Below are positions 14,536 through 38,379 of a stretch of 64,000 nt of DNA, piece by piece. The notes beneath the pieces were generated by a model that ran no database searches, was not told the DNA's origin, and was given only the letters and a program-made list of their open reading frames with translations. The position numbers and the translations under genes were made by a program. The stretch's first letter is position 1, and every line of letters begins with the position of its first letter. The DNA comes from Arthrobacter sp. B3I9 (GTDB lineage Bacteria; Actinomycetota; Actinomycetes; Actinomycetales; Micrococcaceae): positions 2,852,001 through 2,916,000 of the forward strand of contig NZ_JAUSYO010000001.1 of the NCBI RefSeq assembly GCF_030816935.1, read 5' to 3'.

Positions 14536-14566
14536 GGCGCGCCGGTTAGCTGCCTAACCGCGCGCC
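14536..14566. terminator. Hairpin between convergent genes, possible terminator
   Basis: Arms at 14536-14549 and 14554-14566 pair over 13 bp with a one-base bulge and a four-base loop. The hairpin overlaps the stop codon of the cydDC gene and follows the DinB-like gene. There is no T-tract. Confidence 0.5.
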
Positions 14567-17500
14567 AGCACGGGCCCCGCCGCGCCCGGGGCGGTGTCCC
14601 GGTCTTCGTCCCGGTCCCAGCCAACGTTCACGTCAAAGTCCCGATCCAGGTGCAAATCCAGGTCCAGGTCCAGGCGGCTGTCCCCCGGGTCAATGTCCTC
14701 GGGGTTGTGCGTCACGAGGATCACGGTGCGGTTTTTGAGGCCGTGCCGGAGTTCGGCCAGCAGCGCCCGGCCGGACTCCGCGTCCAGATGCGCCGTGGGC
14801 TCGTCGAGCAGGATCACGTCGGCGCCGGTGAGCAGCGTCCGGGCGACCGCCAGCCGCTGCCGTTCCCCGCCGCTCAGGTAGGCGCCGCCGGGGCCGATCC
14901 GGGTGTCCAGCCCGCCACCATCGCTGCGCCCCCCGCTAACCGCGGACTTCTCCAGCCTGGCCATCAGCGGGCCGAGACCGACCGCAGCAAGGGCGTCCTG
15001 CAGCTGCTGCTCGAGCGCGGGCTGCGGAGCCTCCCGCGGGTCCTCTCCGGCCCGGGCCGGAAGCCCGAGCATCAGGTTGCCGCGGATGGTGGAGTCGAAG
15101 AGGTGCGCCTCCTGGGGGCACCAGGCGACCCGGCCGCTGACGGACAACTCCCCGCGGCGGGCCGGCAGAAACCCCATCAGCGTGGCCAGCAGGGTGGATT
15201 TTCCGGAGCCGGACGCCCCGGTGACAGCGAGCCAGCGTCCCGGTTCCGCCGTCGCGGTGAGTCCGGTGAAGACGTCCCGACCACCGGGCCATCCCGCGGA
15301 CAGCGCCCGGAGCCGGATCCCCGGTTGCCCGCCCGGCCGGTCCGGCACCGGAACCAGTCCGTCACTTCCTTCGACGGCCGGTTCCTGGCCGAGCGGGTCC
15401 AGGACGCCGGCCTCGCTGATCCGCCGCAGTACCGACCTGAGGGCGGGGTACTGGCGGACCGCCGTCGTGACCGCGCCGTAGGGTTCCACGAGGGCGAGCT
15501 GCAACAGCACCACGACGGCAACGATCGCGGGCTCCACGCCGCCGCCTAAGGCAAGCGGGGCCGCCAACGCGGCGCTGGCCAGGGCGGCGGCTCCGCAGGC
15601 GAGCACCGTGAGCCCCTGGCCGAGCCCTTCGGCCCACGCGGACCGTTGGGAGGCCGCCGTCGCGGCGCGGTCCGCACTGGTGATGGCCGCGAGGACCGGC
15701 GCGGATACCCCGTTGGCGTGGAGTTCGGCGCGGGCATCCAGCGCGGCCGCGACACTCCGGAGCACACCGGAACGCAGCCGCTGCTCGGTGCCGGCGGACA
15801 TCCGGTCCGCCGCAAGCGCCAGGGCCGGAGCGGCGACGAGGCTCAGCAGCACGGCGGCGGCCATGGCGGGCAGGACCACGGGCAGCAGCAGGCCAGCCGC
15901 AGTCAACGCAGCAGCCGCGACGGCCGCGCCCGTCAGCGGAGGCAGGACAACCCGGGGCAGCAGTTCCCGGACTGTGTCCACGTCGTCCACCACGGCGCCC
16001 AGGACGTTGCCGCCCTGCAGGAGACGGCGCAGTGACAGCGCACGGCGGCTCAGGGAGTCCCAGAGCCGGCCCCGGAGCCTGGTCAGGGCGGCAAACACGG
16101 CGTCGTGCAGCAGCAACCGCTCGGCGTAGCGCAGGGTTGCCCGGCCCACGCCGAAGAAGCGCACCCCCACGATGGCGGTGAGCAGATAGAGGATGGGAGG
16201 CTGTTCGCTGGCCCGGATGATCAGCCAGCCGGAGAGTCCGGCGAGGGCAACGGCAAAGAGTGCCGCCAGTGTGCCGACGGCTCCGGCGGCGCCGAACCTC
16301 GCCGCCACGGGAGCCAGCAGCCGGCAGAGCTGAACCGTTGCCGAAGACACCGGAGCGGAACCGGTGCGGGCCTCGAGCCGGGATTGCGGCACCGGTGCCG
16401 GCCCGGGCTCCGACGATGGCGCCGGCGGCGCTGATTGCGGCGATGGCGCCGGCGGCGCTGCCGGGAGATCCACCTGCCGCAACACCCAACCTGCGGCACT
16501 GAAGACCGCGGGGGCAGCCGGCGCAGTTCCCGTTCCGGATGTGACCGGCACCAGGTCATCCGCAAGCCCGCGGGTCTGCGGGTCGTGCGCCACGAGCAGA
16601 ACAGTCACCTTTCCGCGCAGCGCACAGAGAGCCTGGCTGACCGCGTTGGCGGACTCCCGGTCCAGGTGCGCGGTGGGTTCGTCGAGCAGGAGCACGGTGG
16701 CTCCGGCCTCGATCCGGGCCAGGCCACGGGCCAGCGCCACACGGCGCAACTCCCCCGGGCTGAGCTCAGCCGGGTGCTTGGCGGCAAGGTGCTCGGCCGC
16801 GCACGCCGCGAGGCACCGGCGGGCAGCGTCATCCGCCTCCTCGTCGCGCTGAGCGGGGGCCGGGCCGGCAGGCTGGCCCAGGTACAGCCGGACTTCGTCC
16901 AGCACGGTCGGGGCGACCATCACCGGGTGTTGCGGCACCCAGGCGAGGTCCGCCGGCGTGAATCCCTCCAGCCGCCCGGTGACCGTGGTCCCGCCGCCTG
17001 CCCCGATGGTCCCGGCGAGCACGCCGAGGACCGTGCTTTTCCCGGCGCCGCTGGCCCCGGTGAGCGCGGTGATTTTGCCGGGGGCGGCAGTGAAACTCAG
17101 CGGCCCGACGGCGGCCTGCGTCCGTCCGCTGTACCGGACGGTGAGCCCGGTGACGGAGACCGCCGGCGGCGCGGCCGTCGGCGTCAGAGCAGCAGCGGAA
17201 GCGGTACCCGCGGGCCGTAGCGGCACGGCTTCGGGCGCGCGAAGCACGGCGGTGGTTTCGGCGAGCGCGGCACGGCCCTCATCGCTGGCGTGGTGCGCGG
17301 TCCCCAGTTCCCGGAGCGGGAGGTAGCAGTCCGGGGCGAGGATCAGCGCCAGCAGCCCGGCTTCAAGACCCATGTCCCCGTTGACCAGCCGGACGCCGAT
17401 GAACACCGCCACCACGGCTACGGAAATGGTCGCTATGAGTTCCAGGGCGAGTGCCGAGAGGAACGCTGTGCGCAGCGTTCCCATGGTGCGGGAACGGTAT

Positions 17501-18162
17501 TCCTCGGAAATGTCCTCCAGGGCCTTGCGCTGGTCGCTGGCCCGGCCGAGCCCCACCAGCACGGGCAGGCCCTTGGCAAGCTCGAGCATGTGACCCGACA
17601 GCCGGGTGAGTGCCGACTGCGCCTCCCGCACCCGGTCCTCGGTGTAACGCCCGATCAGGACCATGAACAGCGGCACCAAGGGGACGGTCAGCACAATCAC
17701 CACGGCGCTGATCCAGTCGGCGAACAGGATCCGGGCCCCGAGCAGCAGAGGGACCGCGGCGCAGTTCACCAGGGCCGGCAGGAACTGGGTGTAGTAGTTG
17801 TCCAGCGCGTCCAGTCCGCGTGTGGCCAGGATGGCGAGGCCGCCGTCTGACGGTCCCGCCTGCCGGGTCCCGTTGCGCAGGGCACGCAGGAGCAGCTGCG
17901 AGCGCAGCTCCTCCTTCACCCCCAGTGCTGCCCGGCGCGAGGCGACCGCCTGGGCCCAGACTGCCAGGGAGCGCAGGACCACACCGGCAAGCCCCCAGGT
18001 CAGCTGTTCGCTCCAGGCCGGGTTGTGGTCCATCAGTCCCGCGAGCATGGACGCCGCCGCCTGTCCCATCAGCACGAGGGACAGCGCTTTGAGGGCGGCG
18101 AGCAGCCCCAGCAGGTAGAGCGCGGAGCGGGTTGCGGGCCCGGACGGGAAGTTCGGTCTCAT
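14554..18162 (-). CDS. cydDC: Fused thiol reductant ABC exporter CydD-CydC
   Basis: A cysteine/glutathione-type ABC exporter needed for cytochrome bd assembly. In this 1202-residue protein both half-transporters are fused, as is common in actinobacteria. The first half has six membrane segments, Walker A GASGAGKST, a signature LSPGELRRVALARG and Walker B VLLLDEPTAHLD. The second half repeats this with GASGSGKST, LSGGERQRLAVART and VILLDEPTAHLD. A Pro/Ser-rich linker joins them (about residues 560-600). The frame is open far upstream inside cydB, but the ATG at 18162 has AAGGA within the cydB 3' end and lies five bases after its stop. It is the last gene of the cydA-cydB-cydDC operon. Confidence 0.93.
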   Translation of the reverse strand: MRPNFPSGPATRSALYLLGLLAALKALSLVLMGQAAASMLAGLMDHNPAWSEQLTWGLAGVVLRSLAVWAQAVASRRAALGVKEELRSQLLLRALRNGTRQAGPSDGGLAILATRGLDALDNYYTQFLPALVNCAAVPLLLGARILFADWISAVVIVLTVPLVPLFMVLIGRYTEDRVREAQSALTRLSGHMLELAKGLPVLVGLGRASDQRKALEDISEEYRSRTMGTLRTAFLSALALELIATISVAVVAVFIGVRLVNGDMGLEAGLLALILAPDCYLPLRELGTAHHASDEGRAALAETTAVLRAPEAVPLRPAGTASAAALTPTAAPPAVSVTGLTVRYSGRTQAAVGPLSFTAAPGKITALTGASGAGKSTVLGVLAGTIGAGGGTTVTGRLEGFTPADLAWVPQHPVMVAPTVLDEVRLYLGQPAGPAPAQRDEEADDAARRCLAACAAEHLAAKHPAELSPGELRRVALARGLARIEAGATVLLLDEPTAHLDRESANAVSQALCALRGKVTVLLVAHDPQTRGLADDLVPVTSGTGTAPAAPAVFSAAGWVLRQVDLPAAPPAPSPQSAPPAPSSEPGPAPVPQSRLEARTGSAPVSSATVQLCRLLAPVAARFGAAGAVGTLAALFAVALAGLSGWLIIRASEQPPILYLLTAIVGVRFFGVGRATLRYAERLLLHDAVFAALTRLRGRLWDSLSRRALSLRRLLQGGNVLGAVVDDVDTVRELLPRVVLPPLTGAAVAAAALTAAGLLLPVVLPAMAAAVLLSLVAAPALALAADRMSAGTEQRLRSGVLRSVAAALDARAELHANGVSAPVLAAITSADRAATAASQRSAWAEGLGQGLTVLACGAAALASAALAAPLALGGGVEPAIVAVVVLLQLALVEPYGAVTTAVRQYPALRSVLRRISEAGVLDPLGQEPAVEGSDGLVPVPDRPGGQPGIRLRALSAGWPGGRDVFTGLTATAEPGRWLAVTGASGSGKSTLLATLMGFLPARRGELSVSGRVAWCPQEAHLFDSTIRGNLMLGLPARAGEDPREAPQPALEQQLQDALAAVGLGPLMARLEKSAVSGGRSDGGGLDTRIGPGGAYLSGGERQRLAVARTLLTGADVILLDEPTAHLDAESGRALLAELRHGLKNRTVILVTHNPEDIDPGDSRLDLDLDLHLDRDFDVNVGWDRDEDRDTAPGAAGPVLARG

Positions 18163-18167
18163 GCGGG

Positions 18168-19217
18168 TCAGTCCTTGGCTGCCAGTGCTTTGGCGGCGAT
18201 CGCGGGAAGGAAGCTGTGGGCTTCGGGAATGTGGGCGGCGCTCACCCGGCGCCGGAACACCCAGTAGGTCCAGGCCTGGTAGGCCAGCACGAGCGGGAGC
18301 CCGACGCCGGCCACAACGCTCATCAGCCCCAGCGTGTAGTCCGAGGAGGAGGCGTTGAAGACCGTCAGGTTGAACCGGGGGTTGAGCGTGGAGGGAAGCA
18401 CCACGGGGAAGGCGGCGCCGAAGATGGAAGCAGTGCCGAGCAGCAGGAAGGCGCCGAGGGAGACAAACGCCCTGCCCTCCGAACCTTGCCGGGCGAAGTG
18501 CCAGGCGAGGGCAGCGGCGGCAACCGCGGCGGCCACCGCTGTCACCGTCCACGCTTCGCCGCTGAGCAGCTGCAGGCTTACCGCCCAGCCGGCGAGCGGC
18601 AGCAGCAGCACCGGCAGCAGCCGGACAAACCAGCGGCGGGCGCGGTGACGGACGTCGCCGTCGGTCTTCAGGGACAGGAAGGCGAGGCCGTGCAGGACCG
18701 AAAACCCGACGACGGCGAACCCGCCCAGGACGGCATAGGCGTTGAACCAGGCAAACGGTCCGCCCTCCCGGTCGCCGTTGGCGTTCAGCGGAAGCCCGGT
18801 GGTGGTGAGCGCCAGCATGGCACCGACGCCGAAGGCCGCGGTGAACGAGCCGGCCGCGATGGCCCGGTCCCAACGGGCACGCCACTGCGGGGTGTCCACC
18901 TTGCCGCGGTATTCAAACGCGACGGCGCGGAAGATCAGCGCGACCAGGACCACCAGCAGCGGCAGGTACAGCGCGGAAAACAGGGAGGCGTACCAGAGCG
19001 GAAAGGCGGCAAAGGTGGCACCGGCGGCGGTCAGGAGCCAGACCTCGTTTCCATCCCAGACGGGTCCGATCGTGTTGAGCAGGACGCGGCGTTCGGTGTT
19101 GTCCCGGGCGAAGCCCTTCATCAGCATGCCGACACCGAGGTCGAAGCCCTCCAGGAAGAGATAGCCCGTCCACAGCACCGCGATGGCAATGAACCAGATG
19201 GTCGGAAGCAGTTCCAT
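18168..19217 (-). CDS. cydB: Cytochrome bd ubiquinol oxidase subunit II
   Basis: Structural subunit II of the high-affinity bd-type terminal oxidase in the cytoplasmic membrane. The 349-residue protein begins MELLPTIWFIAIAVLWTGYLFLEGFDLGVGML, which is diagnostic for CydB, includes GPVWDGNEVWL, and has about eight or nine membrane segments. It starts 36 bp after the cydA stop and is followed after five bases by cydDC, so the three are one operon. Confidence 0.95.
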   Translation of the reverse strand: MELLPTIWFIAIAVLWTGYLFLEGFDLGVGMLMKGFARDNTERRVLLNTIGPVWDGNEVWLLTAAGATFAAFPLWYASLFSALYLPLLVVLVALIFRAVAFEYRGKVDTPQWRARWDRAIAAGSFTAAFGVGAMLALTTTGLPLNANGDREGGPFAWFNAYAVLGGFAVVGFSVLHGLAFLSLKTDGDVRHRARRWFVRLLPVLLLPLAGWAVSLQLLSGEAWTVTAVAAAVAAAALAWHFARQGSEGRAFVSLGAFLLLGTASIFGAAFPVVLPSTLNPRFNLTVFNASSSDYTLGLMSVVAGVGLPLVLAYQAWTYWVFRRRVSAAHIPEAHSFLPAIAAKALAAKD

Positions 19218-19253: not shown

Positions 19254-20852
19254 CTAGTAGGCGAAGGCCAGGACATCGTCCGGTGAGCCGGAGCCGCCCC
19301 GGCCCTGCCCCGGCGTCTTGTCCTCGTTCTCGTCGGCCGGAAGATGGGCGAGTTCCGGCATGGCCGAGACCACGCCGCCGCGGATGTATTTGACCAGGAG
19401 CTTGACCTCCACCACGAGCAGCACCGCATACACGGCGGTCAGCACCACCAGGGAGGTCAGAAGCTCGCCGGCGGAGGTGCCGGGCGAGACTGCCGCCGCG
19501 GTGAACATGAAGACCTGGTCGATTCCGCTCGGATCGGGGTTCGGCGCGACGACGAAGGGCTGGCGTCCCATCTCGGTGAAGATCCAGCCGGCGGCGTTGG
19601 CTCCAAAGGGGGCCAGGATGCCGAACACCGCCAGCCGCATGAGGCCGCGCGACGCCGGTACGGTGCCCTTGCGCGTCACCCATAGCGCCACAAATGCGGC
19701 GAGGGCAGCGATGCCGCCGAAGCCGATCATCATCCGGAAGCCCCAGTAGGTCACCTCCATGACGGGCACGTACTGGATCTCCTGGCCGGCGCGCTCCCCG
19801 TAGATGGGGTTGTCGGGCAGGTGTGTGCCGTAGTCGGCCTTGTACTGCTCAAGCAGGCTGTTCACTCCCTTGACCTCGGTGGTGAAGTCGCCCTTGGCCA
19901 GGAAGGACAGGATGCCGGGGACCTCGATTACGGCCACGATATCGTCGCAGTTCTTGGTGCCGAGGTTGCCGACGCTGAGCACCGAAAAGCCTGTGCCGTC
20001 GTGGCAGGCCGCCTCGGCGGCGGCCATCTTCATGGGTTGCTGTTCAAACATGAGCTTGCCCTGCAGGTCGCCGGTGACGGCGGTGCCGGCAAAGGAGATC
20101 ATGGCGACGACGGCGCCGATCCGCAGCGACCGGATCCAGACGGCGTGGTCCGCCCGGTCCCGCCCCGGCACGGCGGACTCGCCGGGGATGACGCGGCCGT
20201 CCGCCCCGACCGTGTCCACCCCGTCGTGGCGTCGGCGCCACAGGTGGTACCAGGCGATCCCGAGCAGGAAGGCGCCGGCGACGGCGAGGGCACCGAAGAG
20301 CGTGTGCGGGACGGCAACGAGCGCGGTGTTGTTGGTGAAAACGGCCCAGGCGTCGGTCATGACCGGACGGCCGTTGACCATCTCGACGCCGACGGGGTGC
20401 TGCATCCAGCTGTTGGCCACGATGATGAAGTACGCCGAGAACACGGAGCCGACGACGGCGACCCAGAGGCAGGCCAGATGGACGCCGCGCTTGAGCTGCT
20501 TCCAGCCGAAGATCCACAGGCCCAGGAAGGTGGATTCCACGAAGAAGGCCAGGAGCGCCTCCATGGCCAGCGGCGCCCCGAACACGTCGCCGACGAAGCG
20601 GCTGTATTCGCTCCAGGCCATGCCGAACTGGAACTCCTGCACGATGCCCGTCGCGACGCCCATGATGAAGTTGATCAGGAACAGCTTGCCCCAGAACTTT
20701 GTCATCCGGAGGTATTCCGGACGGCCGGTGCGGTACCAGAGCGTCTGGATGACGGCAACCACCAGGCCCAGGCCGATCGTGAGCGGCACCATCATGAAGT
20801 GGTAGACGGTGGTGATGCCGAATTGCCAGCGTGCGATTTCCAGGGCGTCCAC
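19254..20852 (-). CDS. cydA: Cytochrome bd ubiquinol oxidase subunit I
   Basis: The haem-bearing subunit I of cytochrome bd, which oxidises quinol and reduces oxygen at low tension without pumping protons. The 532-residue protein shows the haem-ligand region (FGITTVYHFMMVPLTIGL), the motif GRQPFVV, and a quinol-binding loop of the shorter type. The start is a GTG at 20852 with AGGA six bases upstream. Two of the three TTCTAC-N5-GTAGAA operators lie immediately upstream (20881-20921), so expression is probably controlled by the divergently encoded BlaI-type repressor. Confidence 0.96.
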   Translation of the reverse strand: MDALEIARWQFGITTVYHFMMVPLTIGLGLVVAVIQTLWYRTGRPEYLRMTKFWGKLFLINFIMGVATGIVQEFQFGMAWSEYSRFVGDVFGAPLAMEALLAFFVESTFLGLWIFGWKQLKRGVHLACLWVAVVGSVFSAYFIIVANSWMQHPVGVEMVNGRPVMTDAWAVFTNNTALVAVPHTLFGALAVAGAFLLGIAWYHLWRRRHDGVDTVGADGRVIPGESAVPGRDRADHAVWIRSLRIGAVVAMISFAGTAVTGDLQGKLMFEQQPMKMAAAEAACHDGTGFSVLSVGNLGTKNCDDIVAVIEVPGILSFLAKGDFTTEVKGVNSLLEQYKADYGTHLPDNPIYGERAGQEIQYVPVMEVTYWGFRMMIGFGGIAALAAFVALWVTRKGTVPASRGLMRLAVFGILAPFGANAAGWIFTEMGRQPFVVAPNPDPSGIDQVFMFTAAAVSPGTSAGELLTSLVVLTAVYAVLLVVEVKLLVKYIRGGVVSAMPELAHLPADENEDKTPGQGRGGSGSPDDVLAFAY

Positions 20853-20880
20853 AGCAGTCCTACTCAGGCTAGGTCCGAAC

Positions 20881-20897
20881 TTCTACGCGTTGTAGAA
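20881..20897. promoter_or_regulatory. BlaI-type operator 1, cydA side
   Basis: Perfect inverted repeat TTCTAC-N5-GTAGAA, 29 bp from the cydA GTG. It resembles the TACA-N2-TGTA-type operators of the BlaI/CopY family and shares its exact format with two other sites in this intergenic region. Confidence 0.75.
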
Positions 20898-20904
20898 ATC
20901 TTTC

Positions 20905-20921
20905 TTCTACAGAGTGTAGAA
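20905..20921. promoter_or_regulatory. BlaI-type operator 2, cydA side
   Basis: Second perfect TTCTAC-N5-GTAGAA site; its centre is 24 bp from that of operator 1, a spacing that would allow two repressor dimers to bind side by side over the cydA promoter. Confidence 0.75.
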
Positions 20922-21058
20922 CAAACAGGGCCCCCGGCGCATCCGGATGAATCGGCGCCGCAACAGGAGCGGCCACTGCCGCTGCGGGCCGGAATGCCGG
21001 AAGCGACGCTGCCGGAATATCCGGAAGCGACCCCCGGCCCGCCACGCAGAACGGGCTG

Positions 21059-21075
21059 TTCTACCGGATGTAGAA
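21059..21075. promoter_or_regulatory. BlaI-type operator 3, repressor-gene side
   Basis: Third TTCTAC-N5-GTAGAA site, 98 bp upstream of the repressor ATG at 21173, suggesting autoregulation of the repressor/protease pair. The rest of the 320-bp intergenic region holds no gene. Confidence 0.72.
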
Positions 21076-21172
21076 AGAAAGTCGGAAACGCGGTAAATTT
21101 GAGGTTGAAGCGTAAACACGCCCCCGACAGGCAATCCAGCCACTCCGGGCGGCCGTCAAGAAGGACGTACTC

Positions 21173-21559
21173 ATGGCAAGTCTTGGGGAACTGGAACGGG
21201 CAGTGATGGATCTGCTCTGGGCAAGCCAGGAGGCTGCAACGGCCAACACATTGCGGGATCTGCTGGCGCAAAGCACCCGCACGGAGGGTGCCACCCCGGG
21301 GCATGAGGGCAAGGACCTGGCCGTCACCACGGTGCTGACTGTACTGTCCCGCCTTGAGCGCAAAGGCCTGGTGGAGAGGGAACGCGGCACCCGTCCGCAC
21401 CGCTACCAGGCCGTGTCCAGCCGGGCTGACCACACGGCCGAGCTCATGCATGAGGTTTTGGGCTCCGCGCCGGACCGGGAGGCCGTGTTGGCGCGCTTTA
21501 TTGGTTCTGTCACCGACACGGAAGCGGAAACGCTGCGCAAACTGCTGGGCCGCAGCTAG
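21173..21559 (+). CDS. BlaI/MecI/CopY family transcriptional repressor
   Basis: A 128-residue winged-helix repressor with the family N-terminus (GELERAVMDLLWASQEAATANTLRDLL) and the recognition segment TTVLTVLSRLERKGLVERERGTRPHRY. BlaI-type proteins bind short inverted repeats as dimers and are inactivated by cleavage by a partner M56 protease. The gene has a ribosome site (GAAGGA) and is followed six bases later by an M56 protease gene. Three matching operators lie in the shared intergenic region with cydA. The mycobacterial BlaI homologue has been linked to respiration genes, which fits. I infer control of cydAB-cydDC. Confidence 0.92.
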   Translation: MASLGELERAVMDLLWASQEAATANTLRDLLAQSTRTEGATPGHEGKDLAVTTVLTVLSRLERKGLVERERGTRPHRYQAVSSRADHTAELMHEVLGSAPDREAVLARFIGSVTDTEAETLRKLLGRS

Positions 21560-21565
21560 CGCCCG

Positions 21566-22555
21566 ATGTTCTGGACCTCATGGTTCCTGGCGGTCCTGGC
21601 GATAGTCCTGGCATGGCCGGTGCCTATCCTGCTCTCCCGCGCCCAGTGGCCGGCCCGGTCCCCGTTTACCGCCATGGTCCTGTGGCAGGCGATAGCTTTG
21701 GCCGGTGGCTTGTCCATGATCGGCGCAATGCTCGCCTACGGACTGGAGCCCGTCGGGGACAACCTGCTGGCGGGCCTGAGGTCCCTGGCCGGCATGGTCC
21801 TTTTCAACGCTCCCACCACCGCGCTGGGATTCTGGCACATTTTTGCGCTCTCGGCAGCTGCCCTGCTGACGGCACACCTCGTCTTCACCCTGCTGCTGAC
21901 CTATTACAAGATCCAGCGGCAGCGCCACCGGCACCGTGAACTGCTCACCCTGCTGGCCTCGCCGTCCGCCGACGGCCCGAAGACCATGGTGCTCAACCTG
22001 GATTCGCCGGTGGCATACTGCCTGCCGGGCGGCGCACGATCCGTCACGGTCCTCTCCGACGGGCTGATGGCGGCGCTGGAACCGGCAGAGCTGCGGGCCG
22101 TCCTGATCCACGAGAACGCCCATCTCAACCAGCGCCACCATCTGCTGCTCTGGGCCTTCGCCGCCTGGCGCCAGGCGTTGCCGTGGCTGCCGACAACGCG
22201 GCTCGCGCAGGAGGCCGTCAATTCGCTGATTGAGATGCTCGCTGACGACGTCGCGCTCAAAACCGAAAGCAAGGCGACACTGATCAGGGCCATCGCGATT
22301 GTGGCGAGCGGCTCCCCCGGCTCCCCGGGCACCCCGCTGGCCCTGGGCGGCCCGGACCCGGCCGACGTCGACTCCGGCCAGCCCGGCGCCGTTGGAGGCA
22401 GCGGTTCGGCCCGTACCACTGCCTCCCGGGTCAGCCGGCTGCTCTCTGTCCAGCCGCCGCTGCCGGAGCCGTTCCGGGCGGCCGTACTGGCGGCCTGCCT
22501 GCTGCTGCTGGCCGTGCCGACGGCGCTGCTGATCGTCCCGGGTCTCCTCGGCTGA
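21566..22555 (+). CDS. M56 family membrane metallopeptidase (BlaR1-like, no sensor domain)
   Basis: A 329-residue membrane zinc protease with three N-terminal membrane segments, a HExxH zinc site (HENAH at about residues 182-186) in a cytoplasmic domain, and a C-terminal membrane segment. Compared with BlaR1 and MecR1 it lacks the extracellular penicillin-binding sensor domain, so the signal must be sensed differently, perhaps within the membrane. It starts six bases after the repressor gene, probably translationally coupled. The expected role is to cleave or release the BlaI-type repressor. Confidence 0.88.
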   Translation: MFWTSWFLAVLAIVLAWPVPILLSRAQWPARSPFTAMVLWQAIALAGGLSMIGAMLAYGLEPVGDNLLAGLRSLAGMVLFNAPTTALGFWHIFALSAAALLTAHLVFTLLLTYYKIQRQRHRHRELLTLLASPSADGPKTMVLNLDSPVAYCLPGGARSVTVLSDGLMAALEPAELRAVLIHENAHLNQRHHLLLWAFAAWRQALPWLPTTRLAQEAVNSLIEMLADDVALKTESKATLIRAIAIVASGSPGSPGTPLALGGPDPADVDSGQPGAVGGSGSARTTASRVSRLLSVQPPLPEPFRAAVLAACLLLLAVPTALLIVPGLLG

Positions 22556-37968: not shown

Positions 37969-38016
37969 GGCTGTACCGTCCAGCGGGTCCTACTACGTTG
38001 CGTAGAAGTCTCTGGC

Positions 38017-38028: not shown

Positions 38029-38379
38029 ATGAACATCGTCTATAACGTCATGGTCTTCCTGCACATCATCGGCGCCGCCATGATCGTCGGCATCTGGATC
38101 GGCCAGATGAAAAAGCCCACGGTCCACCCGCGCCAGTTCGACGGCGCAGCCCTGCAGATCATCACCGGCATCATCATGATGGGCCTCATCCCCGCCCTGG
38201 ACAGGGATGCCAACTATGCCAAGCTCGGCGTCAAGCTCGTGATCGCGCTGGTCGTGGTCGCACTGGCGTTCATCGGCCGGCGCAAGTACAAGAAGGGCGA
38301 ACCGGTCAGCAAGGGCCTCGCCCACAGCGTTGGCGGTCTGGCACTGCTCAACGTGGCCATCGCGACGCTCTGGCAGTAG
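38029..38379 (+). CDS. Small four-helix membrane protein
   Basis: A 116-residue integral membrane protein with about four hydrophobic segments (residues 4-24, 39-58, 65-84 and 97-114) and a basic central loop (RRKYKKGEPVSKG). A histidine lies in the first helix (FLHIIGAA), as in DUF2269-like and some haem- or copper-related membrane proteins, but I cannot assign a family with confidence. It is flanked by two strong terminators, so it is a monocistronic gene with its own leaderless-type promoter. Confidence 0.78.
   Translation: MNIVYNVMVFLHIIGAAMIVGIWIGQMKKPTVHPRQFDGAALQIITGIIMMGLIPALDRDANYAKLGVKLVIALVVVALAFIGRRKYKKGEPVSKGLAHSVGGLALLNVAIATLWQ

Follow-up and report, generated by a model that had tools for sequence, protein, structure and literature searches.

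What does a BlaI-type repressor, paired with a BlaR1-like membrane metalloprotease, regulate when it is encoded back to back with a cytochrome bd operon? The question is raised by a 64,000-nucleotide stretch of the genome of Arthrobacter sp. B3I9 (contig NZ_JAUSYO010000001.1, positions 2,852,001 to 2,916,000), hereafter the window, in which cydA and the blaI-protease pair diverge from a 320-bp gap that separates the cydA start (20852) from the blaI start (21173). The protease frame begins 6 bp after blaI (Table 1). An earlier note, made from the sequence alone, had proposed that the repressor is wired to the cytochrome bd operon, and its assignment of BlaI beside cydA is confirmed by a Pfam match; CydA, CydB and CydDC are likewise confirmed by Pfam and TIGR matches. 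From comparisons across the family, we consider it probable that BlaI and its sensorless protease, divergent from cydA, form a circuit for terminal-oxidase and haem supply, of which cytochrome bd would be one of several predicted targets.

The three TTCTAC-N5-GTAGAA inverted repeats that the earlier note had described in the gap are all exact and lie where it placed them. The two cydA-side copies start 24 bp apart, and the blaI-side copy ends 98 bp ahead of blaI, from which we infer autoregulation of blaI. By a first-order model of the window the gap would be expected to hold 5.9e-7 exact matches, and it holds three. Across the 30 best BlaI loci (window's included) the centre of the repeat is variable and the arms are constant, as would be expected of a binding site. 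Two sites, counted with up to one mismatch, occur at 72 cydA loci, and at 64 of these their starts are 23-26 bp apart. Two other origins of the repeats were considered and rejected: chance, in view of the expectations for the gap and for the whole genome, and terminators or mobile-element ends, since the repeats are mostly single, stand at unrelated promoters and vary at the centre.

A scan of the whole host genome (one contig, 4.12 Mb), which the earlier note had suggested, returned 8 exact TWCTAC-N5-GTAGWA sites against 0.014-0.10 expected, all of them intergenic in the frames as read. Two face cydA, and one each precedes blaI, hemQ (Chlor_dismutase family), an ABC-ABC-ctaA operon divergent from sufR-sufB, and a histidine phosphatase-ResA-ResB-CcsA operon for cytochrome c maturation; the remaining two precede small unknown proteins. 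A further 10 sites have one mismatch. Three of these look real, standing ahead of the ATP-synthase operon (Pfam ATP-synt_A, _C and _ab), ctaC-ctaD (COX2, COX1) and sucC; four lie inside genes (L006, L010, L012, L013) and are taken as chance, and L005, L009 and L011 are without explanation. BlaI is encoded once at full length in the host, where a second match to PF03965 is weak and partial. Because a reversed-pattern control, which differs in composition, outscored the real pattern at one mismatch (64 vs 18 hits) and at two (681 vs 153), we rely here on gene context and on co-loss rather than on numbers of hits.

That gene context was followed through 15 genomes, in a table that holds 131 of their 136 exact sites; the other five, 2 from G117 and 3 from G019, have coordinates that place them in the blaI-cydA gap. 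Cytochrome bd and the repressor itself account for 31 of the 131, which face cydA or blaI. Another 63 face genes for haem or haem a synthesis, cytochrome c maturation, oxidase subunits or their assembly, copper delivery, succinate dehydrogenase, ATP synthase or the NO-detoxifying flavohaemoglobin, bringing the combined number to 94, and 23 face small, mostly membrane-like proteins whose function is unknown. A site precedes hemQ in all 15 genomes, ABC-ctaA in 14 and the cytochrome c maturation operon in 12 (via its first gene or resA). A 144-aa protein with no Pfam family (L032:4049-4483 and homologues) has an operator in 11 genomes, and the flavohaemoglobin Hmp has one in 8 (loci such as L103, L117, L149, L159, L167 and L198), in several loci adjoining an Rrf2/NsrR-type regulator; none of the host genome's 8 exact sites is at a flavohaemoglobin gene. 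In six genomes a site stands in front of a homologue of the 116-aa protein encoded beside the fourth exact site of the window, a protein that matched no Pfam family and is likely a respiratory factor. Sequence and comparison show predicted operators of identical format ahead of cydA, blaI, hemQ, the ctaA operon, the cytochrome c maturation operon and other respiratory genes.

Linkage and loss of BlaI were then compared with the presence of sites in a family survey of 120 genomes, in which a BlaI orthologue had to score at least 80 bits. BlaI stood for the pair in these counts, and the protease was observed in the loci fetched. The CydA count left out distant or partial matches in G042 and G066 (40-58%, in pieces) and a 28-residue fragment in G033, and joined two pieces in G077. 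On these terms a BlaI orthologue occurs in 104 of the 120 genomes, 96 of which also have CydA, and the two genes are divergent in 93 of the 96, with gaps of 132-451 bp. Absence of the sites from relatives with the same gene order, an outcome that the earlier note had named as damaging to its proposal, was not what we found: of the 30 top-ranking BlaI loci, 27 have a divergent cydA and each carries one exact site or more. The distance rule classes 73 of 80 named loci as divergent, and three exact sites are present at 52 of those 73. Outside the 73, L324 is divergent by coordinates, L265 has cydA 3.8 kb off, L325 is broken in the match, and no CydA was found within loci L313, L315, L318 and L319.

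In G004, G035 and G109, where blaI and cydA are unlinked, two exact cydA sites are retained in each genome, with a one-mismatch third in G109. In genus g11 a drifted pair (BlaI 37-38% identical) is located elsewhere in 4/4 fetched cases, and each of the three cydA loci fetched (G011, G041, G088) bears its genome's single exact site. The drifted g11 pair (L340-L343) adjoins a gene for a Dyp-type peroxidase (Pfam in L340). With the drifted BlaI of g11 counted as present, an exact site is found in 107 of 108 BlaI-bearing genomes versus 1 of 12 BlaI-less ones (Fisher p 1e-13, uncorrected for relatedness; as the genomes are related, such p-values are not independent tests). Genomes with a BlaI orthologue average 6.5 exact sites and those without 0.4, compared with 2.0 and 1.4 for the reversed control. 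All seven cydA loci of BlaI-less genomes are without a site within two mismatches. BlaI and the sites are also lost together inside the single genera g6 and g14, and in a second family, f4, all 9 genomes that have BlaI also have sites, whereas none of the 4 that lack it does. Finally, eight genomes keep BlaI and 7-17 sites each with no close CydA (G042 and G066, among them, each carry a divergent copy of cyd; that of G066, the one fetched, has two sites), which argues that cytochrome bd is not the circuit's sole reason. The proposal that the repressor is wired to cydA is supported by linkage, retention of sites when unlinked and loss of sites with BlaI, but was too narrow, cytochrome bd being one member of a predicted haem and oxidase regulon.

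BlaI passes the curated cut-off of PF03965 Penicillinase_R (73.7 vs 22.6 bits), and its sole solved relative at E<=0.001 is 2g9w (E 7e-15), which we take to be Rv1846c. F109, presumably near the position of cleavage in the staphylococcal repressors, is invariant in 17 BlaI sequences, and palindromic predicted operators are present at blaI's own promoter, cydA and others. In the protease, H182, E183 and H186 of the HExxH motif, E223 and D227 are invariant in 26 sequences, all of which share C152 in an AYCLPG strand. The structural model (predicted local distance difference test score, pLDDT, 87.7) has a disordered segment at 252-280 and long helices before and after the protease core, which would span the membrane. 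A penicillin-binding sensor is absent, because the protein terminates six residues past its last helix (301-323). In a fold comparison, BlaR1 structures scored best (8exq, E 8e-4), with ZMPSTE24 next among other proteins; template modelling (TM) scores were low (0.37 for 8exq), perhaps in part because the solved BlaR1 is domain-swapped, as passages of PMC9834060 describe. On this model the enzyme looks like a BlaR1-like protease without the sensor domain.

The placement of the operators bears on the sign of control. In 12 of 14 cases the ctaA operator runs into a TAGAAT element a short way ahead of the predicted start codon and would overlap the -10 element. At the window's cydA and 116-aa genes the operator is immediately upstream of a possible -10 element, although the cydA elements gave no convincing alignment across species. 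Since the operators overlap or adjoin the -10 element at these three genes, a bound repressor would block RNA polymerase. The hemQ operator seemingly lies further upstream, ahead of the promoter, where BlaI would block an activator or itself activate. In 8 of 14 rows (L034, L104, L110, L114, L121, L129, L138, L146) a CRP/GlxR-like site, GTGA-N6-(G/T/C)CAC, directly adjoins the operator of hemQ. This arrangement suggests joint control of hemQ.

In the circuit we propose, a BlaI dimer would bind each repeat and repress; faltering respiration would activate the protease, which would remove BlaI; and removal would raise the supply of haem, of cytochromes, of oxidase loaded with copper and haem, and of the copper-free bd oxidase, with autoregulation resetting the BlaI level. 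The least certain parts are the signal, for which copper or haem/oxidase status are our best guesses (copper has a precedent in PetR/PetP, and an oxidase starved of copper or haem would be a natural cue), and the idea that some promoters are activated rather than repressed. A bolder version, possible but on balance doubtful, would see in BlaI and the sensorless BlaR1-like protease a master homeostat, ancestral in actinomycetes as a whole, that keeps oxidase and haem supply in balance. The protease would then read whether haem- and copper-loaded oxidases work, perhaps via C152 beside the zinc site, and would release a single regulon of haem completion, haem a, cytochrome c, oxidase assembly, ATP synthase, NO defence and cytochrome bd, beta-lactamase control being a late side branch.

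A number of observations weigh against the proposed circuit. The evidence is comparison of sequences, from which binding, control of expression and its sign are predictions, and the position of the hemQ operator also fits activation. PetR, the BlaI-family factor of cyanobacteria, both represses and activates according to PMC7896320, and a PetP-like activation by copper would raise cyd with copper, opposite to copper sparing. The protease falls under the Pfam cut-off for M56 (23.5 vs 31 bits) and passes that for M48 (37.5 vs 20.3 bits), with BlaR1 as the top match by fold; the lack of a penicillin sensor, as the earlier note had it, is supported. The remaining 14 of the 131 sites have neither a labelled respiratory gene nor a small membrane protein in front of them. 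They comprise sites at four PPOX-type flavoproteins, PPK2, LDH/DUF885, a DnaJ-C28 domain protein and a possible truncated globin, together with L170 (classed as other, since SURF1 lies beyond that site and is oriented towards it) and five unlabelled. Labels beyond the core were partly taken from the sites' own neighbours, named by Pfam where a family is given. The reversed control gave 0-8 hits per genome, and because it averages 2.0 and 1.4 (its composition differs), the chance rate may be above that of the model. G059 has two sites and no BlaI, and G090 has BlaI with only a one-mismatch site. Outside the family, L202, L204, L205, L210, L218 and five of the seven sites in G156 have no visible respiratory neighbour, and of the mycobacterium-like blaI loci, G376 and G121 have only a one-mismatch site and G247 none.

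The likeliest rival is a copper switch of the PetR/PetP type, in which copper would directly activate the protease and copper-dependent would be swapped for copper-free respiration, some promoters possibly being repressed and others activated. PMC7896320 and passages of PMC13421787 describe a BlaI factor and BlaR1-type protease that swap plastocyanin and cytochrome c6 by copper, and the targets in some genomes include CopC, CopD/CtaG, SURF1, ctaA, ctaC and the copper-free cytochrome bd. We nevertheless regard the copper switch as rather unlikely: the most constant targets are haem steps, with hemQ in every one of the 15 genomes and CopC in just 2, and high copper would raise cyd, a response of the wrong sign unless BlaI is an activator of that operon. 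Ancestry argues for a response to cell-wall or beta-lactam stress, within which alone respiration would change, and mycobacterial BlaI is described as a blaC repressor in passages of PMC8265638 and PMC5473688. This is improbable for a protease without the sensor domain and for operators with no beta-lactamase among the labelled neighbours of the 131 sites. In the host, no match to the beta-lactamase families PF00144 and PF13354 comes within about 46 kb of any of the 8 exact sites (other beta-lactamase classes and penicillin-binding protein genes were not searched), and a beta-lactamase regulon was rejected on this distance.

Two narrower accounts concern the sites themselves. A local, autoregulated repressor of cydABDC only, with the remaining sites due to chance or weak, would suit genomes with a single exact site, placed at cydA or between blaI and cydA, namely G061, G103 and the three g11 genomes fetched. 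It is very hard to reconcile with 8 exact host sites where 0.1 or fewer are expected, with the same targets recurring across many genomes, and with the eight genomes that keep BlaI and many sites in the absence of a close CydA; cydA-only control was accordingly dropped on the genome-wide sites and recurring targets. The repeats might instead be bound by another regulator, such as one of CRP, Rex or WhiB type, the BlaI pair being a mere neighbour, and the CRP/GlxR-like sites at hemQ indicate that others may act there too. We hold this account to be highly improbable, since the sites vanish with BlaI, also within g6 and g14, and persist with BlaI when the genes are unlinked. The repeat moreover shows what we take to be the TAC...GTA core of BlaI/CopY operators.

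The proposed haem and oxidase circuit has relatives among known systems. Mycobacterial BlaI (Rv1846c) is reported to bind the cytochrome bd and ATP-synthase promoters, and its partner BlaR (Rv1845c) is also described as lacking a sensor, both in passages of PMC5473688 (for promoter binding, citing Sala 2009), so that the mycobacterial BlaI-respiration link mentioned in the earlier note is in print. In M. smegmatis, BlaI represses the Rv1303-atp homologue, as passages of PMC12565901 state. The window's repressor is of the same type, with predicted operators at cydA (two exact) and at the ATP-synthase operon (one-mismatch). It differs in that blaC is also controlled in mycobacteria, whereas no gene of the two beta-lactamase families lies near a site here; in that the mycobacterium-like pair in the f10 loci fetched stands before gnd, whereas the window pair is divergent from cydA; and in a predicted regulon centred on hemQ, ctaA and cytochrome c maturation, unlike that of mycobacterial BlaI. 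PetR/PetP also joins a BlaI-family factor and a BlaR1-family protease to electron-transport genes (here by predicted targets only), and the regulator there is removed by the protease, as would be the case here (PMC7896320 and passages of PMC13421787). Theirs, however, is a four-protein regulon with a plastocyanin/cytochrome c6 swap and a reported copper signal, and the one predicted here is larger and concerns haem and oxidases. The staphylococcal BlaI/BlaR1 and MecI/MecR1 systems share the repressor family, the membrane zinc protease and the fold of its protease part (8exq first), but the window pair has no penicillin-binding sensor, a TAC-N5-GTA operator and respiratory targets. In other actinomycetes cydAB is under respiration-linked control by CRP/GlxR and SenX3-RegX3 (passages of PMC7719681), and cyd is controlled by Rex in Streptomyces (PMC5355995). 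These regulators are from families unrelated to BlaI, and the likeness lies in respiration-linked control of cyd.

Traces of the circuit extend beyond the family. Exact sites occur in 11 of 18 same-order or same-class genomes tested, and a site precedes cydA or a cydA-like gene in at least one genome each of families f4, f10, f23, f24, f33 and f41. In f23 a site precedes a homologue of the 116-aa protein (L219; 38% identity, E 2e-13), and in f24 sites precede hemE and a copC-family gene. In the f10 loci fetched (L236, L237), the blaI-protease pair precedes gnd, not cydA, presumably the mycobacterial order, as in M. tuberculosis. Family f25 has BlaI homologues but an exact site in just 3 of 27 genomes, so that the circuit is not universal.

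The features of the window are collected in Table 1. The closest named relatives of its BlaI are from Arthrobacter and Pseudarthrobacter. A second, distant cydA-like gene in the host genome (G000:C1:910005-911291, 30% identity) has no exact site nearby.

Table 1. Genes and predicted regulatory elements of the window (positions are those of the window)
Feature	Position	Strand	Basis or remark
cydDC, fused ABC exporter gene	14554..18885	-	TIGR02857 and TIGR02868 within a single 1443-aa open frame; true start probably near 18129, where the CydD match begins
cydB	18168..19217	-	PF02322, TIGR00203
cydA, GTG start	19254..20852	-	PF01654, E 2.5e-150
Candidate cydA -10 element, TAGCCT	20866..20871	-	By eye; 9 bp downstream of the proximal operator
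Predicted BlaI operator, cydA-proximal	20881..20897		Exact TTCTAC-N5-GTAGAA, TTCTACGCGTTGTAGAA; kept in relatives
Predicted BlaI operator, cydA-distal	20905..20921		Exact TTCTAC-N5-GTAGAA, TTCTACAGAGTGTAGAA
Predicted operator before blaI	21059..21075		Exact TTCTAC-N5-GTAGAA, TTCTACCGGATGTAGAA
blaI-type repressor gene, 128 aa	21173..21559	+	PF03965, E 2e-20
BlaR1-like membrane metalloprotease gene, 329 aa, without sensor domain	21566..22555	+	HExxH; predicted structure
Fourth predicted operator of the window	37991..38007		Exact, TACTACGTTGCGTAGAA; absent from the earlier note's list
Gene for 116-aa hydrophobic protein (by eye, membrane), candidate regulon member	38029..38379	+	

No publication on BlaI and cydA in Micrococcaceae was among the matches listed. 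What is new here is a pair dedicated by position to cydA and a predicted haem and oxidase regulon read across a family, the novelty being limited to that of a variant because the mycobacterial BlaI and PetR/PetP precedents exist. Cytochrome bd lets some actinomycetes survive respiratory inhibitors, and how these bacteria choose between the copper-containing bcc-aa3 branch and cytochrome bd, and match haem to that choice, is poorly understood. A defined operator, a cydA-linked regulator-protease pair and a listed regulon make this a directly testable system, available in a genus of harmless soil bacteria, in which two small unknown proteins can be named as likely respiratory factors. For the sensorless BlaR proteins of actinomycetes more generally, it makes respiratory cues better candidates than antibiotic ones.

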